From Micromonospora musae (GTDB lineage Bacteria; Actinomycetota; Actinomycetes; Mycobacteriales; Micromonosporaceae), in the NCBI RefSeq assembly GCF_003626635.1, contig NZ_RAZT01000011.1:1-64000 (forward strand): a stretch of DNA of 64,000 nt, read 5' to 3'. The position numbers and the translations under genes are program-made. The notes under the pieces were generated by a model. The model ran no database searches, was not told the origin of the DNA, and worked only from the letters and a program-made list of their open reading frames with translations. Positions 2,871 through 8,300 of this stretch are shown one piece after another. Position 1 is the stretch's first letter. Each line of letters opens with the position of its first letter.

Positions 2871-3911
2871 TCAGCCGGGACGGCCGAAGCTGTGGATCGG
2901 GCCGTCGTCGACCTTCTTCATCTTGACCGGCACTCCGGCCTGGGAGGCGTGCACCACCCATCCGCCGCCGACGTACATGCCGACGTGGTGCAGGTCGCTG
3001 TAGTAGAAGACGAGGTCGCCGGGGCGGAGGTCGGCCCGGCTCACCGTCTTCGTCGCCCGGCGCTGCTGCGCGGCGTTGTGCGGCAGCGACACCCCGGCCT
3101 TGGCCCAGGCCGCGAGCATGAGCCCCGAGCAGTCGTACGAGTCGGGGCCGTCGGCCCCCCAGACGTAGGGCTTGCCGATCTGGGCGCAGGCGAACTTCAC
3201 CGCCACCCCGGCCGCGCCACCCGGATAGGTGGCCGGGCACGGGGCCGGCCGCAGCGAGCCACCGCCACCGTTGCCGTACACCTTGATGCGCAGCTTCTGC
3301 AGCCGCTCGATCTCGGTGTTGATCTGCTTCTTCTTCGCCGCCAGTTGGGCCTCGGTACGGGTCAGCTCGGTGACCAGCTCGTCCAGCGGCGCCTTCTGCC
3401 GGGCCAGCTGGTCGCGCAATTCGACGACCTGGGCGACGTCCTGCTGCTGGTTGTGGGCGAACCGGTCGAGCAGCTCCAACTGCCCGACGACGTCACCCGG
3501 CGACTGGCTGCCGAGCAGCGCGTTGACGGTCGAGAGGTTCTCGCCCTTGTACGCCCGTACCGCGAGCACGCCGACCTTGTTCATGGCCTGGTCGATCCGG
3601 AGCTGCAGTGGCTTGATCCGGGCGGCGAGCGCATCGGCCTGCCGACGCTTGGCGGTGAGTTCCTGACGGGTCGCGTTGTGCCGCTCGATGACGGGTTCGA
3701 GCTTGTTCCAGTCCTGGTCGATCTGGCGCTCGATCTCGGCGACCGACGGGTCCGCGTGGGCCGCGGTGGCGCCGCCGCCGAGGACGACGCCGATGCCGAC
3801 GAGGGCGGCGAGGACGGTGGTGAAGCGGGACCAGCGTGGACGCGGCGCACCCGTCGTCAGGCCGGCTGTCGCCGGCCGTCCGGACGGAGGCCGCGGGGCA
3901 TGGTGGGCCAC
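2871..3911 (-). CDS. Secreted NlpC/P60 peptidoglycan endopeptidase with coiled coil (RipA-like)
   Basis: This protein of 346 residues has an N-terminal membrane/signal segment (about residues 30-53, ending in AAHADP). A long charged coiled coil follows at about 55-200, then a Gly/Pro linker and a C-terminal NlpC/P60 domain. Catalytic features are DSYDCSGLMLAAW (Cys), DLHHVGMYVGG (His) and the following HAS. This family cuts the D-Glu/mDAP bond in peptide stems during cell separation, and the coiled coil usually keeps the enzyme off or binds FtsX-type partners. The start is GTG at 3911 with GGAG just upstream. The leader is a c-di-AMP riboswitch, so expression should follow that second messenger. 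Confidence 0.9.
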   Translation of the reverse strand: MAHHAPRPPSGRPATAGLTTGAPRPRWSRFTTVLAALVGIGVVLGGGATAAHADPSVAEIERQIDQDWNKLEPVIERHNATRQELTAKRRQADALAARIKPLQLRIDQAMNKVGVLAVRAYKGENLSTVNALLGSQSPGDVVGQLELLDRFAHNQQQDVAQVVELRDQLARQKAPLDELVTELTRTEAQLAAKKKQINTEIERLQKLRIKVYGNGGGGSLRPAPCPATYPGGAAGVAVKFACAQIGKPYVWGADGPDSYDCSGLMLAAWAKAGVSLPHNAAQQRRATKTVSRADLRPGDLVFYYSDLHHVGMYVGGGWVVHASQAGVPVKMKKVDDGPIHSFGRPG

Positions 3912-3931
3912 CGGGCTCCGTACTCCTTCTT

Positions 3932-4062
3932 CCCTGACCGCCTACCGGGTTAGCTGACGGGTTCGGGCGGGAAGGTCAGCGCCCTACCGCAGTGGCTGCG
4001 GATTCACCCCGGGAACCTGGGTCCCCGGCTCGCTCGGGGAGCGACTCGGCGGTGTCGGACCG
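3932..4062 (-). promoter_or_regulatory. c-di-AMP riboswitch (ydaO-yuaA leader)
   Basis: On the minus strand, ahead of the NlpC/P60 gene, the conserved blocks of the ydaO class occur in order. These are a CCGAG helix strand, GGGGTGAATCCGC, then ACTGCGGTAGGGCG, then GCCCGAACCCGTCAGCTAAC, then CCGGTAGGCGGTCA, followed by GAAGAAGGAG. The terminal helix can form between the ACACCGCC region near 4055 and GGCGGTCA near 3935. In actinobacteria this class typically controls cell-wall hydrolase genes and turns them off when c-di-AMP is high. Boundaries are approximate; the class assignment is by recognition of the conserved core. Confidence 0.88.
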
Positions 4063-4300
4063 TTACCGCCCTGGTTGGACGGACCTGTTGCCGGCCGACG
4101 ATTGACCAGACTAGAGACCCTCGTTACCGATCCGCAACCCTTCGGGCGGTGACACTCCGTGCATGGAGCGGCGGAACGCACTCTCCGTGCGAATCTCGAA
4201 GATTTTTTTCCTATGCGATGGGCAGATCGAAAGGTATTGACCGAGGCGGGCCGGCGGAGCGAAGGTGACCAATACCTGACCCGTCCTTACTGGGGGCTCG

Positions 4301-6316
4301 ATGCATCGATCAACCATCTCCAGGAGCAGGCGCGCCCTGCTCACCGCCGCGGTGGTCAGCGCCACCGCGGCCGTGCCACTGACCGGCGTCCCGGCCAACG
4401 CCGCCCCGGCCGGCGACCGCCAGCAGCAGTACGTCGCCGCGGCGACGGCGTACGGGGTGCCGGAGAGCGTCCTGCTCGGCGTCTCGTACCTGGAATCCAG
4501 GTGGGACACCCACGCCGGCACGCCCAGCACGAGCGGCGGCTACGGCCCGCTGCACCTCACCGACGCAGCTCACGTCGCGAACCTGCCCGCCGCTTCGCAC
4601 GTCGACGAGGGCGAGGACCCGCGCGGTGACACGTCCCGGCCGTTGACCCTCGGTGCGCCGAAGAAGTCCGCAGCCGACGCACCCGCACCCGCGGCGCTAC
4701 GGACCCTCCAGGCCGCTGCGGCGCTCACCGGGGCCGACGCCGAGGCACTCCGCACCGACCCCGCCACCAACATCCGGGGCGGCGCGGCCCTGCTCGCCTC
4801 GCACCAGGAACAGCTGGGCGGCCCGGTGGGCGCGGCGACCGACCCGGGAGCCTGGTACGCGGCGGTGGCCCGCTACTCCGGCGCGGAGACCGAGGAGACG
4901 GCGACCGCCTTCGCCGACGAGGTGTACGACCAGATCCGACTCGGCGCGAGCCGACGCACCGACGACGGGCACCAGGTCACCCTCCGCGCACGGAAGGTGA
5001 CCACGGAGACCGGCGCGCTGCATCGGCTCGGGCTGCGCGAGCCGCAGGGGCGCGCAGGAGTCGAGTGCCCGGCGCGGCTCGGCTGCGAGTGGATCCCCGC
5101 GCCGTACGAGCAGTACGGCCCGACCGTCGGCGACTACGGCAACCACGACCTGGGTGACCGGCCGGCGCAGCAGAAGATCGAGTACATCGTCATCCACGAC
5201 ACCGAGGGGTACTACCAGCCCAGCGTCGGCCTCGTGCAGCAGGCGGACTACCTGGGCTGGCACTACACGCTGCGCTCGGTGGACGGCCACGTGGCCCAGC
5301 ACGTGAAGGCCGAGGACGTCGGCTGGCAGGCCGGCAACTGGTACGTCAACGCGAAGTCGATAGGCATCGAGCACGAGGGCTTCGCCGGCCACGGCACCTG
5401 GTACACCGAGGCGATGTACCGCGCCTCGGCCAAGCTGGTCCGGTACCTGGCGCTCAGGTTCGGCATCCCACTGGACCGGCAGCACATCATCGGGCACGAC
5501 AACGTGCCCGGGACGGTGGCCTCGACGGTGGCCGGCATGCACTGGGACCCGGGCCCGTACTGGGACTGGTCGCACTACTTCGACCTGCTGAAGGCGCCGT
5601 TCCGGACCACCGGCACCAAGCGGACCGGCCTGGTCACCATCGACCCGGACTTCGCCGCCAACCGGCCGGCGTTCGTCGGCTGCAACCGGCAGCCGCCGGG
5701 CGTGCCGAACCCGCCGCCGCCCGCCGAGCCCTGCCCGCTGCGCGGCTCGTCCGCGGTCGTCCTGCACAGCGCGCCGAGCCAGGACGCCCCGCTCGTCAAC
5801 GACCTGGGTCTGCGTCCGGACGGCTCGCCGAACACCATGTACATCTCCGACCACGGCGCCCGGGCCTCCGCCGGCCAGACGTACGCGGTGGCCGAGGTGC
5901 GCGGTGACTGGACGGCGATCTGGTACCTCGGGCAGAAGGCGTGGTTCCACAACCCCGCCTCGGCCCCCACCGCCAGGTGGGCCACCGGTTTCGTGGTGAC
6001 CCCGAAGCCGGGGAAGGCGACGATTCCGGTCTACGGCCGGGCCTACCCGGAGCAGGACGCGTACCCGGCCGGGGTGGCGTACCAGACGATCTCCCCGTTG
6101 CAGTACACGCTCGCCGCCGGTCAGCGGTACGCCGTCGGCGACGTGCTGCCGAGCGAGTACTACAAGGCCACCACCTTCGACGGCTCGTCCCCGGGCGACT
6201 GGACGGTGATCCGGGGCGACCTGCGGTACGTGCAGATCCAGTTCGGGCACCGCATCATGTACGTCAACCTCGACGACGTGCTGCTGCTCCCGTCCCTGGT
6301 GGGCGCGCCCCGCTGA
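4301..6316 (+). CDS. Secreted N-acetylmuramoyl-L-alanine amidase (Amidase_2) with N-terminal lysozyme-like region
   Basis: This 671-residue protein has a signal peptide (RSRRALLTAAVVSATAAVP, cleavage near ANAAP at about 36). Residues about 40-220 look like a degenerate transglycosylase/lysozyme-like fold (ESVLLGVSYLESRWDTH, then GGAALLASHQ). The Amidase_2 domain follows at about 290-430: zinc ligand His in YIVIHDTEG, second His in HIIGHDNVPG, and the acidic/aromatic MHWDPGPYWDW. The remaining 240 residues (NRPAFVGCN onward) form a C-terminal region with SH3-like strands that may bind the wall. It removes stem peptides from glycan chains. It is divergent from the riboswitch-controlled endopeptidase and convergent with a second one. 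Confidence 0.88.
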   Translation: MHRSTISRSRRALLTAAVVSATAAVPLTGVPANAAPAGDRQQQYVAAATAYGVPESVLLGVSYLESRWDTHAGTPSTSGGYGPLHLTDAAHVANLPAASHVDEGEDPRGDTSRPLTLGAPKKSAADAPAPAALRTLQAAAALTGADAEALRTDPATNIRGGAALLASHQEQLGGPVGAATDPGAWYAAVARYSGAETEETATAFADEVYDQIRLGASRRTDDGHQVTLRARKVTTETGALHRLGLREPQGRAGVECPARLGCEWIPAPYEQYGPTVGDYGNHDLGDRPAQQKIEYIVIHDTEGYYQPSVGLVQQADYLGWHYTLRSVDGHVAQHVKAEDVGWQAGNWYVNAKSIGIEHEGFAGHGTWYTEAMYRASAKLVRYLALRFGIPLDRQHIIGHDNVPGTVASTVAGMHWDPGPYWDWSHYFDLLKAPFRTTGTKRTGLVTIDPDFAANRPAFVGCNRQPPGVPNPPPPAEPCPLRGSSAVVLHSAPSQDAPLVNDLGLRPDGSPNTMYISDHGARASAGQTYAVAEVRGDWTAIWYLGQKAWFHNPASAPTARWATGFVVTPKPGKATIPVYGRAYPEQDAYPAGVAYQTISPLQYTLAAGQRYAVGDVLPSEYYKATTFDGSSPGDWTVIRGDLRYVQIQFGHRIMYVNLDDVLLLPSLVGAPR

Positions 6317-6411: not shown

Positions 6412-7425
6412 TCAGCCGGGTCGTCGGAAGCCGGCGACCGGCATGTAGTTGATGCTCGTCACCTGGACCGGTTTACCGGCCCGTGGCGCGTGGACCATCT
6501 GGTCGTTGCCGAGGTAGAGCCCGACGTGGTGCAGGTCGCTGAAGAAGAAGACCAGGTCACCCGGGCGGGCCTCGGAGCGCGGAATGGCCTTGCCCTCGTT
6601 CCACTGCGCGCCCGTGAAGTGCGTGAGGCTGATCCCGGCGGCCTTGTACGCGTACTGGGTCAGGCCGGAGCAGTCGAACGAGTTCGGGCCGGTGGCACCC
6701 CAGACGTACGGGTCGCCGACCTGCTTGCAGGCCGTCTGGATCGCGGTGCGCGCCGCCTCGCTGACCACGCCCTTGATGGTGGGGCAGTTCTCCGGCATGA
6801 CGACCGACTTCGGCAGCAGCTTCTCCAGCCGCTTGATCTCGCCGTCGATCTTCTTCTTCTTGGCGGCGAGCTCGTTCTGCTGCTTCGTCTGGGTGGTGAT
6901 GAGCGTGTCGAGCTTCTGCTTCTCCGCGTCGTACTTGGCGCGGATCTTCAGGATGCCCTCGACCTGCTTGTGCTCCTGGCGGGCCAGCCGGTCGAGGATG
7001 GTGAGCTGCTCGGTGAGCGTGTCCGGCTTGGCGCTGACCAGCAGGGCGCCGAGGTCCTGCGACGGACCGCTGATGTAGTAACGGGAGGCGAGGTCACCGA
7101 CCCGGGTCATCGCCAGCTCGGTCTGGAGACTGAGCGGCTCGATCTTCTTCTCCAGCTCGGTCGACTTCTTCTGGTTGACCTTCAGCTGCGCCCGCACCTT
7201 GTTGTACTGCTCGATCGTGGGTTCCAGCTGCTCCCACTGCTTGTCGATCTGCGCCTCGATCTCCTCGACCGTGGGCGCGGCGTGGGCCGGCGCGGCGAGC
7301 AGGCCGGCGCCGACGGCCGCGGCAGCGACCAGTGTGAGCAGGCGGTGGGCAGCCCGACGCAGGCCACCCGGACGAGCGGAACGTCCCGGTGCGTGACGAT
7401 GGAGGGGCATGGTTGCCACCGGCAC
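6412..7425 (-). CDS. Secreted NlpC/P60 peptidoglycan endopeptidase with coiled coil (second copy)
   Basis: This protein has up to 337 residues: signal peptide (LLTLVAAAAVGAGLLAAPAHAAP), coiled coil from about residue 50 to 205, and a C-terminal NlpC/P60 domain. Catalytic Cys is in NSFDCSGLTQYAYKAAG, His in DLHHVGLYLGN, and the third polar residue in VHAPRAG. It is clearly paralogous to the endopeptidase at 2871-3911 but has no ydaO leader, so the pair is probably regulated differently. The start is ambiguous: GTG at 7425 is only 3 nt from AAAGGAG, GTG at 7419 is 9 nt away and better placed, and ATG at 7410 is also possible. It probably cuts stem peptides at the septum. Confidence 0.9.
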   Translation of the reverse strand: MPVATMPLHRHAPGRSARPGGLRRAAHRLLTLVAAAAVGAGLLAAPAHAAPTVEEIEAQIDKQWEQLEPTIEQYNKVRAQLKVNQKKSTELEKKIEPLSLQTELAMTRVGDLASRYYISGPSQDLGALLVSAKPDTLTEQLTILDRLARQEHKQVEGILKIRAKYDAEKQKLDTLITTQTKQQNELAAKKKKIDGEIKRLEKLLPKSVVMPENCPTIKGVVSEAARTAIQTACKQVGDPYVWGATGPNSFDCSGLTQYAYKAAGISLTHFTGAQWNEGKAIPRSEARPGDLVFFFSDLHHVGLYLGNDQMVHAPRAGKPVQVTSINYMPVAGFRRPG

Positions 7426-7622
7426 CGACTCCTTTGTAACCGACCGCCAGGCGCCTCGCAGAGGGGAAGGAGGCGAGGGCAGACGTCCACAGCGGTCGGT
7501 GCCCCACGATAGGGAAGCGCCGGAGCGGAATCAAGGCGAGGCCGCGCGTCGTCACTCCGGCGGAATGCGCCGCCTACCAAGGGTGCCGGTCTCCGGTGGC
7601 GGAGCGCGGCTAGCGTCGGGCC

Positions 7623-8300
7623 ATGCCGCAACTCACCCTCGCCCACGAACTTGCCCTGCTCGGCTACGACGACGCGGGCGTCAACCGCCTCGGCGCGCCG
7701 CATCTCGGCTACGGTCTCGCGGGTGCGCTGCTGCTCGAACTCGCCCTCGCCGAGCGGGTGACGGTCGTCGACGGCCGGCTCGCAGCCACCAGTGCGGAGC
7801 CGCTCGGCGTGCCGCTCCTGGACGACGCGCTCGCCCGGATCGTCGCTCACGGCAAGCGTCGCCGGCCGCGGGACTGGATCATGCCGCTCGCCAAGGGGCT
7901 GCCGGACCGGGTGCTGGACGGGCTCGTCGACGCCGGGGTGCTGCGCCGGGAGTCGGACCGGGTGCTCTGGGTCTTCCCGCGTACCCGCTACCCCTCGCCG
8001 ACCGGCGCGGAGCCGGCGGCGGAGACGCACGCACGTCAGCGGATGCTCGCGGCGGTGGCCGGGGAGGGCCCGGTCGAGCCACGAACGGCGGCTCTGATCA
8101 GCCTGACCCAGGCCGTCGGCCTGCACCGCAAGCTCTTCGGCGAACTGCCGAAGCCGCAGGTAAAGCGACGTCTGGCGGAGATCTCCGAGGCCGACTGGGC
8201 GTCGGCGGCGACGAAACGGGCGATCGCCGACACGCAGGCCGCAGTGTTGGCGGCCACCACCGCCAGCACCGCCGCGATCATGGTGAGCACGACCTCCTGA
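7623..8300 (+). CDS. GPP34 (GOLPH3/VPS74-like) family protein
   Basis: This 225-residue protein shows the GPP34 pattern. The opening MPQLTLAHELALLGYDDAG is followed by the GYGLAGALLLELALAERVTV helix-strand, then GVLRRESDRVLWVFPRTRYP and a helical C-terminus (LISLTQAVGLHRKLFG). The eukaryotic relatives bind PI4P at the Golgi. Actinomycetes carry many copies of unknown role, possibly membrane-associated or linked to secondary metabolism. No partner gene is evident: the endopeptidase is divergent and the Fe-S reductase convergent. Confidence 0.88.
   Translation: MPQLTLAHELALLGYDDAGVNRLGAPHLGYGLAGALLLELALAERVTVVDGRLAATSAEPLGVPLLDDALARIVAHGKRRRPRDWIMPLAKGLPDRVLDGLVDAGVLRRESDRVLWVFPRTRYPSPTGAEPAAETHARQRMLAAVAGEGPVEPRTAALISLTQAVGLHRKLFGELPKPQVKRRLAEISEADWASAATKRAIADTQAAVLAATTASTAAIMVSTTS

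Follow-up and report, generated by a model that had tools for sequence, protein, structure and literature searches.

The window, i.e., the whole stretch of DNA analyzed here, comprises 64,000 nt of Micromonospora musae (assembly GCF_003626635.1, contig NZ_RAZT01000011.1, positions 1–64,000 of the forward strand). It carries two paralogous NlpC/P60 endopeptidase genes, A and B, with a divergent Amidase_2 gene between them (Table 1). Their proteins are 42% identical over 293 aligned positions, and both belong to the NlpC/P60 family by their PF00877 scores (82.6 bits for A and 96.1 bits for B at a cut-off of 23). Gene A is similar to RipC-type hydrolases. Membership of the RipC family NF038345 was rejected for both proteins, with 140.9 bits for A and 151.2 bits for B being below the curated cut-off of 425 bits. 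The genome has six NlpC/P60 genes, A included, and one diadenylate cyclase gene. In three other Micromonospora loci (L022, L034, L035) the amidase gene is missing or a remnant, and A and B are adjacent; the amidase gene may have been inserted into a B–A pair that already existed, or may have been lost repeatedly.

Table 1. Genes and leader elements of the A–B locus in M. musae, in window coordinates
Feature	Position	Strand	Basis
Gene A, secreted coiled-coil NlpC/P60 endopeptidase, GTG start	2871–3911	-	PF00877, E 2.3e-23
AAGGAG, Shine-Dalgarno of A, 11 nt before GTG	3923–3928	-	GAAGGAG invariant across 30 leaders
c-di-AMP (ydaO/yuaA) riboswitch aptamer, RF00379	3924–4061	-	cmscan, 92 bits, E 2.6e-20
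GGGAAG, pseudoknot partner, immediately 5' of AAGGAG	3929–3934	-	Sequence complementarity
Aptamer helix P1, 3' strand GGCG	3939–3942	-	Rfam structure line
CUUCCC in aptamer hairpin loop, loop side of pseudoknot	3969–3974	-	Sequence; loop–tail pairing beats swapped pairs
Aptamer helix P1, 5' strand CGCC, 2 nt after P0	4048–4051	-	Rfam structure line
P0, predicted 5'-terminal stem	4054–4099	-	Minimum free energy fold of segment and full leader, alifold of 30 leaders, pair counts, family and held-out tests
TAGTCT, -10-like hexamer (TANNNT) of A	4108–4113	-	TANNNT at matching place relative to P0/P1 in most class-set leaders
TTGCGG, -35-like hexamer of A, 18 nt before -10	4132–4137	-	Sequence; TTGCG invariant in 30 leaders
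Amidase_2 gene, divergent, between A and B	4301–6316	+	PF01510, E 1.5e-29
Gene B, NlpC/P60 endopeptidase, paralogue of A	6412–7425	-	PF00877, E 1.5e-27
AAGGAG, Shine-Dalgarno of B	7429–7434	-	Sequence
Candidate B-leader RNA: outer stem ACCGACCGC..GCGGUCGGU, 5'-strand bulge, hairpin with pyrimidine-rich loop	7439–7500	-	Conservation, both-side pair changes
TATCGT, -10-like hexamer of B (TAATGT in most relatives)	7506–7511	-	Sequence comparison

The original prediction had placed a ydaO element at 3932–4062 in the leader of gene A. The covariance search with RF00379 that it had proposed as a check matched the complete model (positions 1–134) with ends agreeing within 8 nt, and the score of 92 bits compares with a gathering threshold of 38 bits (E value calculated for the whole window). 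RF00379 was the only one of 4227 Rfam models to match in 3880–4320 at E ≤ 10. The core blocks GGGGUGAAUCC and CCGAACCCGUCAGCUAACC are present in the A leader and form mostly invariant columns in an alignment of 30 leaders. That the match arose by chance, or is a decayed relic without ligand binding, is hardly credible against this score and the conserved blocks, with core columns invariant across the 30 leaders; we found nothing in favor of it. The aptamer is an ordinary further member of a known riboswitch kind, and what the locus adds is structural.

Five RF00379 elements are present in the M. musae genome. They precede gene A, a C39-like peptidase gene, a gene for an Rpf-LysM protein and two genes for coiled-coil proteins without Pfam match; the genome scan found none before the five NlpC/P60 genes other than A. 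The two coiled-coil proteins (L003, 481–1497, minus strand, contig 7; L004, 1629–2708, plus strand, contig 3) follow an A-like plan, and their C-terminal domain, itself without Pfam match, is probably another wall hydrolase domain. At the C39-like gene (L002, minus strand, contig 2), a 28-codon open frame lies behind the aptamer's Shine-Dalgarno, between aptamer and gene, and stops 82 nt before the first listed gene start; this riboswitch may act via a short leader peptide. Among relatives, RF00379 was found in 145/150 genomes of the family sample, 165/200 of the order, 152/216 of the class and 22/119 of the phylum sample. The number of RF00379 copies varies widely, from 1–2 in some genomes to 11 in two Micromonosporaceae (G064, G106) and up to 12 in a genome of family f95 (G583).

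We scanned 80 GTDB loci around relatives of A with a covariance model built from these five elements. One aptamer-bearing NlpC gene was accompanied by one aptamer-free NlpC gene in 66 loci, by two in 2 loci and by none in 4 loci; the remainder had no aptamer-bearing gene, with two NlpC genes in 5 loci and one in 3 loci. None of the 80 loci showed two aptamers. These counts include L050 and L077 as aptamer-bearing on weak R1 matches without an Rfam match. A check of 21 of the 80 loci with Rfam gave exactly one RF00379 in each of 11; in the other 10, whose matches had been weak or lacking, the only RF00379 was that of L042, away from its NlpC genes. In the NlpC tree (quick method, root disregarded, with one very long row, L061_9079), A belongs to a group whose 28 rows all bear an aptamer, and B to one whose 26 rows are all aptamer-free; SH-aLRT is 100 for either group. 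Gene order varies, i.e., B lies 5' of A in Micromonospora, and the aptamer-bearing gene comes first in most Streptomyces loci. Because the asymmetry recurs across GTDB loci, it is stable and not an accident of the M. musae strain, and the one-of-two aptamer pattern is old. It is not new in kind, given the similar asymmetry published for C. glutamicum cg2402/cg2401 (PMC9960051).

The loop–tail pseudoknot of RF00379 is present in the A leader as CUUCCC/GGGAAG. Across 165 non-redundant leaders the two sides covary: pairing of each loop with its own tail gave -11.58 compared with -10.32 for swapped tails (sd 0.18), and none of 200 permutations was as good. The result was the same for the 147 leaders of the window's class (-11.68 versus -10.65, sd 0.17, 0/200) and the 18 leaders of other classes (-10.70 versus -8.38, sd 0.40, 0/200). 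In two NlpC leaders (L045, L043) an insert separates P1 from the Shine-Dalgarno; there the pseudoknot partner has moved and is still at the Shine-Dalgarno. This reading of partner positions left out 15 loci without anchor, non-riboswitch loci among these, and double anchors in L105, L106 and L169 may be spurious. In L104, from another Actinomycetota class, pseudoknot loop AGCUCUUUUGG and tail CCAAAAGAGCU have 11 complementary bases. No terminator-like site was found in 3700–4320, and with the partner adjoining AAGGAG this anatomy fits a translational riboswitch. A loop–tail step that hides the ribosome binding site (RBS) is known in kind, and the comparative test supports it for the A leader. 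The folding energy of the whole A leader is unexceptional (z -0.24), and its predicted fold is without the aptamer core.

A strict sigma-70 scan of the A leader gave no promoter and did not report TTGCGG; we assign the promoter from the fixed position of TANNNT across leaders. This hexamer ends 4–12 nt before the stem P0 in 83 of 97 P0-bearing leaders, and 6–8 nt before it in 69 of them, compared with 1/97, 0/97, 0/97 and 6/91 in control windows. It lies 38–72 nt before P1 in 121 of 137 class-set leaders. In 106 of these 121 (37.7 expected), the stretch between predicted start and P1 folds into a terminal stem, leaving 0–3 nt before P1; with ten same-class leaders of the phylum sample added, it does so in 108/128 (39.9 expected). 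In the window's class the -10-like hexamer is mostly 6–8 nt before P0, and P0 ends 0–3 nt before P1, so the mRNA is predicted to begin with P0. If transcription in the window started 7 nt downstream of the -10 hexamer, that start would fall 40 nt before the RF00379 match; the mapped start of C. glutamicum cg2402 is 42 nt before its Rfam match, as given in a 2013 paper with an older Rfam release (PMC3890552). For rpf1 the same source gives a start just 20 nt ahead of the match, a distance too short to hold a full P0. Likewise, in four leaders from distant Actinomycetota (L092, L094, L095, L113) the -10-like hexamer ends at most 10 nt from P1, so that P0 has no room there.

P0 is composed of an outer stem (GUCGG/CCGAC and CCG/CGG), an unpaired stretch on the 5' strand and a CCGUCC-AACCA-GGGCGG hairpin. 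It lies outside RF00379, the Rfam model having 10 unpaired positions 5' of P1, and no Rfam family for it was found among 4227 models (3880–4320, E ≤ 10). Among non-redundant leaders, the Micromonosporaceae set, which includes one metagenome-assembled genome of unsure family (L043), gave P0-like folds in 44/62 (shuffle expectation 12.3) and the Streptomyces set in 15/16 (3.1). The P0 definition had been set after seeing this first leader set and was applied unchanged to a held-out set, where 38 of 59 new non-redundant class leaders fold in this way (12.8 expected). Before counting we left out L036 and L189, which are too short, and redundant leaders (165 to 106, and 79 to 59). P0 arms pair with their own partners at a mean of -14.41 kcal/mol compared with -8.48 kcal/mol when swapped (sd 0.23), and none of 200 permutations was as good. 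The common alifold structure of 30 leaders has 95% and 98% of cells paired in the two P0 helices, with two pairs changed on both sides in each. The whole structure has 5 such pairs, a number reached by 10/500 shuffles; this covariation is modest because slid structures also reach 4. The energy of the window's own P0 segment has a z of -1.39, and 18/200 shuffles fold as well.

The stem is sparse in some held-out families (1/4 leaders in f60, 0/2 in f47). Among phylum-sample leaders, those of the window's class (a subset of L092–L119) had P0-like folds in 3/10 (2.2 expected) and terminal stems in 2/7 (1.8 expected), those of other classes in 3/18 (3.5 expected) and 0/5 (0.6 expected), respectively. 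P0 is thus not universal, and some leaders of the window's class are without it; its absence outside the class is read from few leaders. Where it occurs, P0 has a preferred shape. A bulge of 3–7 nt is on the 5' strand in 70/103 unbranched folds and on the 3' strand in 0/103, compared with 144 versus 135 in shuffles, and the hairpin loop is A.?CC in 45/103 folds (6.1 expected), a pattern picked after viewing the list. Bulge, loop and -10 spacing counts pool the first and the held-out set and exclude L092–L119. Stem letters vary freely, and we saw no obvious shared sequence in the bulge. We rejected a switch in which the 3' arm GGGCGG of P0 pairs with the 5' strand of P1: in L038 the P0 hairpin (CUUCC..GGAAG) no longer matches P1, i.e., this pairing is not conserved. 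Our literature search on ydaO, RF00379, c-di-AMP riboswitches, Streptomyces, Actinobacteria and rpfA found no description of P0, which is no proof of novelty as key older papers lay outside the search. It also found no paper on the c-di-AMP riboswitch with Micromonospora.

Gene B had been predicted to have no such leader. As regards the aptamer, this was borne out: no RF00379 match was found in 7300–7800 even at E ≤ 10, which also rules out a decayed aptamer before B. As regards the leader as such it was not, for the B leader (about 7426–7505) is a conserved RNA with a supported fold. Mean column identity across 25 Micromonospora sequences is 92% in the leader and 70% just upstream of the -10 hexamer. 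The stem starts 5 nt after the -10 hexamer and is followed by the 5'-strand bulge, the hairpin and the Shine-Dalgarno; in position and layout the B leader is similar to P0, in sequence it is not. Within Micromonospora no B-leader pair has changed on both sides. With wider relatives (alignment A5), 11 pairs have done so, in 19 cells; 0/500 shuffles are as high and slid structures reach at most 7 cells, in an alignment that was fitted to the model and therefore leans towards structure. None of 4227 Rfam models matches the B leader, and 7300–7800 gives two weak, unrelated matches (7347–7403 and 7584–7638).

A model of the B leader found one place above chance in the M. musae genome and matched in 13/61 family genomes and 9/44 genera, with two matches in one genome. 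An RF00379 place lies 1.2–3.5 kb from the match in at least 10 genomes besides the window's own (coordinates compared by eye); for G036 and G002 there was none nearby among the matches listed. Of 12 loci read in the frame of the B-leader model, 10 have a following gene that is closer to B than to A, and L268 and L269 had no match in this frame. We regard the B leader as a candidate structured RNA whose target gene is clear and which, conceivably, has a regulatory role.

We propose that gene A is under a translational c-di-AMP OFF riboswitch with P0 at the mRNA start, and that B is outside this control with a leader of its own; we give this reading a probability of about 0.7. The mRNA of A would begin with the short stem P0, with the aptamer following 2 nt on. 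Binding of c-di-AMP would stabilize the aptamer fold, and in the stabilized aptamer the CUUCCC loop would pair with GGGAAG adjoining AAGGAG. The ribosome would then be excluded and less wall endopeptidase A be made. The most likely task of P0 would be to shield the 5' end of this mRNA and to prevent mispairing of the first aptamer helix. B would escape c-di-AMP control and present its own conserved RNA before its Shine-Dalgarno. The earlier idea that one enzyme is tied to c-di-AMP and the other is not agrees with an aptamer on A only, with 66/80 loci arranged alike and with the single diadenylate cyclase gene. What has to be revised is the role of B, which has a structured leader as well. Rather than as a regulated A and a plain B, the pair should be read as A with P0 and a c-di-AMP lock, and B with another conserved RNA.

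The same aptamer could instead make RNA polymerase stop early in the leader upon c-di-AMP binding, with the loop–tail pairing merely part of the aptamer fold. Premature termination by c-di-AMP has been reported for S. coelicolor rpfA, according to a review (PMC10117811). In C. glutamicum, presence of the riboswitch itself lowered the transcript at any c-di-AMP level (PMC9960051), which likewise counts against the translational reading. Moreover, the crystallized aptamer, a relative that binds two c-di-AMP molecules, also has a pseudoknot, its printed sequence containing the complementary CUCCUUCG and CGAAGGAG (PMC5393176); loop–tail pairing hence need not be a ribosome lock. This is countered by the lack of a terminator-like site in 3700–4320 and by the position of the partner, which in the window, L045 and L043 alike is at or adjoining the Shine-Dalgarno; in the latter two it has shifted together with that site. 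In C. glutamicum, high c-di-AMP lowered the protein of an nlpC riboswitch reporter, not its mRNA (PMC9960051). For S. coelicolor, too, the riboswitch seems to block the RBS, as stated in an S. lividans paper with reference to Haiser 2009 and Block 2010 (PMC8079986). We consider early termination at gene A unlikely, with perhaps one chance in several.

Two other views concern P0. It might simply reflect GC-rich sequence and have no function as a structure, as suggested by the modest z of the window's own segment, by P0-like folds at 61/324 control CGCC sites in the held-out loci and by the lack of a clear excess in the ten phylum-sample leaders of the window's class. The frequency of terminal stems and held-out P0-like folds, the preference of P0 arms for their own partners and the -10-like hexamer 6–8 nt before P0 in 69/97 leaders all argue against it, and we consider this view disfavored to the point of being very improbable. 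Alternatively, P0 might be a second sensor or a protein-binding site, with the A leader then responding to two signals and the B leader being a first module of this kind that lacks the aptamer. A plain protective stem would need neither a set bulge side nor a set loop, so that docking of P0, or a binding partner for it, is conceivable, and the B leader likewise begins near the predicted mRNA start with its bulge on the 5' strand. Against this, P0 stems vary freely in sequence, the bulge is without an obvious common sequence, and the hairpin loop of B is long and pyrimidine-rich, unlike that of P0. On balance we think a sensing or protein-binding P0 rather doubtful, and prefer 5'-end protection together with prevention of P1 mispairing.

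A broader, tentative reading is that many actinomycete wall-endopeptidase leaders are modular. A 5'-terminal domain with a 5'-strand bulge would come first, joined at A by the aptamer that locks the Shine-Dalgarno, and a related domain would stand alone at B as a new class of cis-regulatory RNA sensing another signal. If so, the paralogue pair would read two different signals via RNA. A 5' domain absent from the current RNA family model appears to be present in many actinomycete c-di-AMP leaders. As this domain precedes the aptamer, a construct that begins with the aptamer would be without the native 5' terminus. The A/B pair moreover is a natural comparison, within one genome, of an endopeptidase with and one without c-di-AMP control.

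Compared with the ydaO/yuaA family as modeled in RF00379, the A leader has the complete aptamer with its loop–tail pairing and differs in the extra P0 5' of P1. Stem-loops at the 5' terminus are known to stabilize mRNAs, e.g., E. coli ompA. Like these, P0 sits at the very 5' end of the predicted mRNA, and it may share their stabilizing role; it differs in its preferred bulge side and loop and in abutting an aptamer.

Among actinobacterial NlpC genes, riboswitch control has been published for C. glutamicum cg2402/nlpC (PMC9960051). There, too, the gene behind the aptamer is of the NlpC/P60 type and is linked to another nlpC-type gene, a canonical terminator is lacking according to that source, and a loop–RBS pseudoknot (CTCC/GGAG) has been proposed as thinkable. 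As to the divided roles in growth or spore germination that the original prediction had suggested for A and B, and which are hypothetical, loss of nlpC in C. glutamicum caused no visible morphological change (PMC9960051). In C. glutamicum, however, the second gene is in one operon with the first, whereas M. musae B lies 5' of A and has promoter-like hexamers and an RNA leader of its own. S. coelicolor rpfA likewise has a c-di-AMP aptamer on a wall hydrolase gene, but premature termination is reported for it (PMC10117811), though RBS blocking is cited for S. coelicolor as well (PMC8079986). One review groups ydaO with riboswitches whose docking hides the RBS (PMC10907184). In preQ1-III and cobalamin env8 riboswitches, with interdomain docking, a ligand-stabilized aptamer docks on the RBS (PMC10907184), as we propose for gene A; these are other aptamers, and docking was measured there, whereas for A it is predicted.
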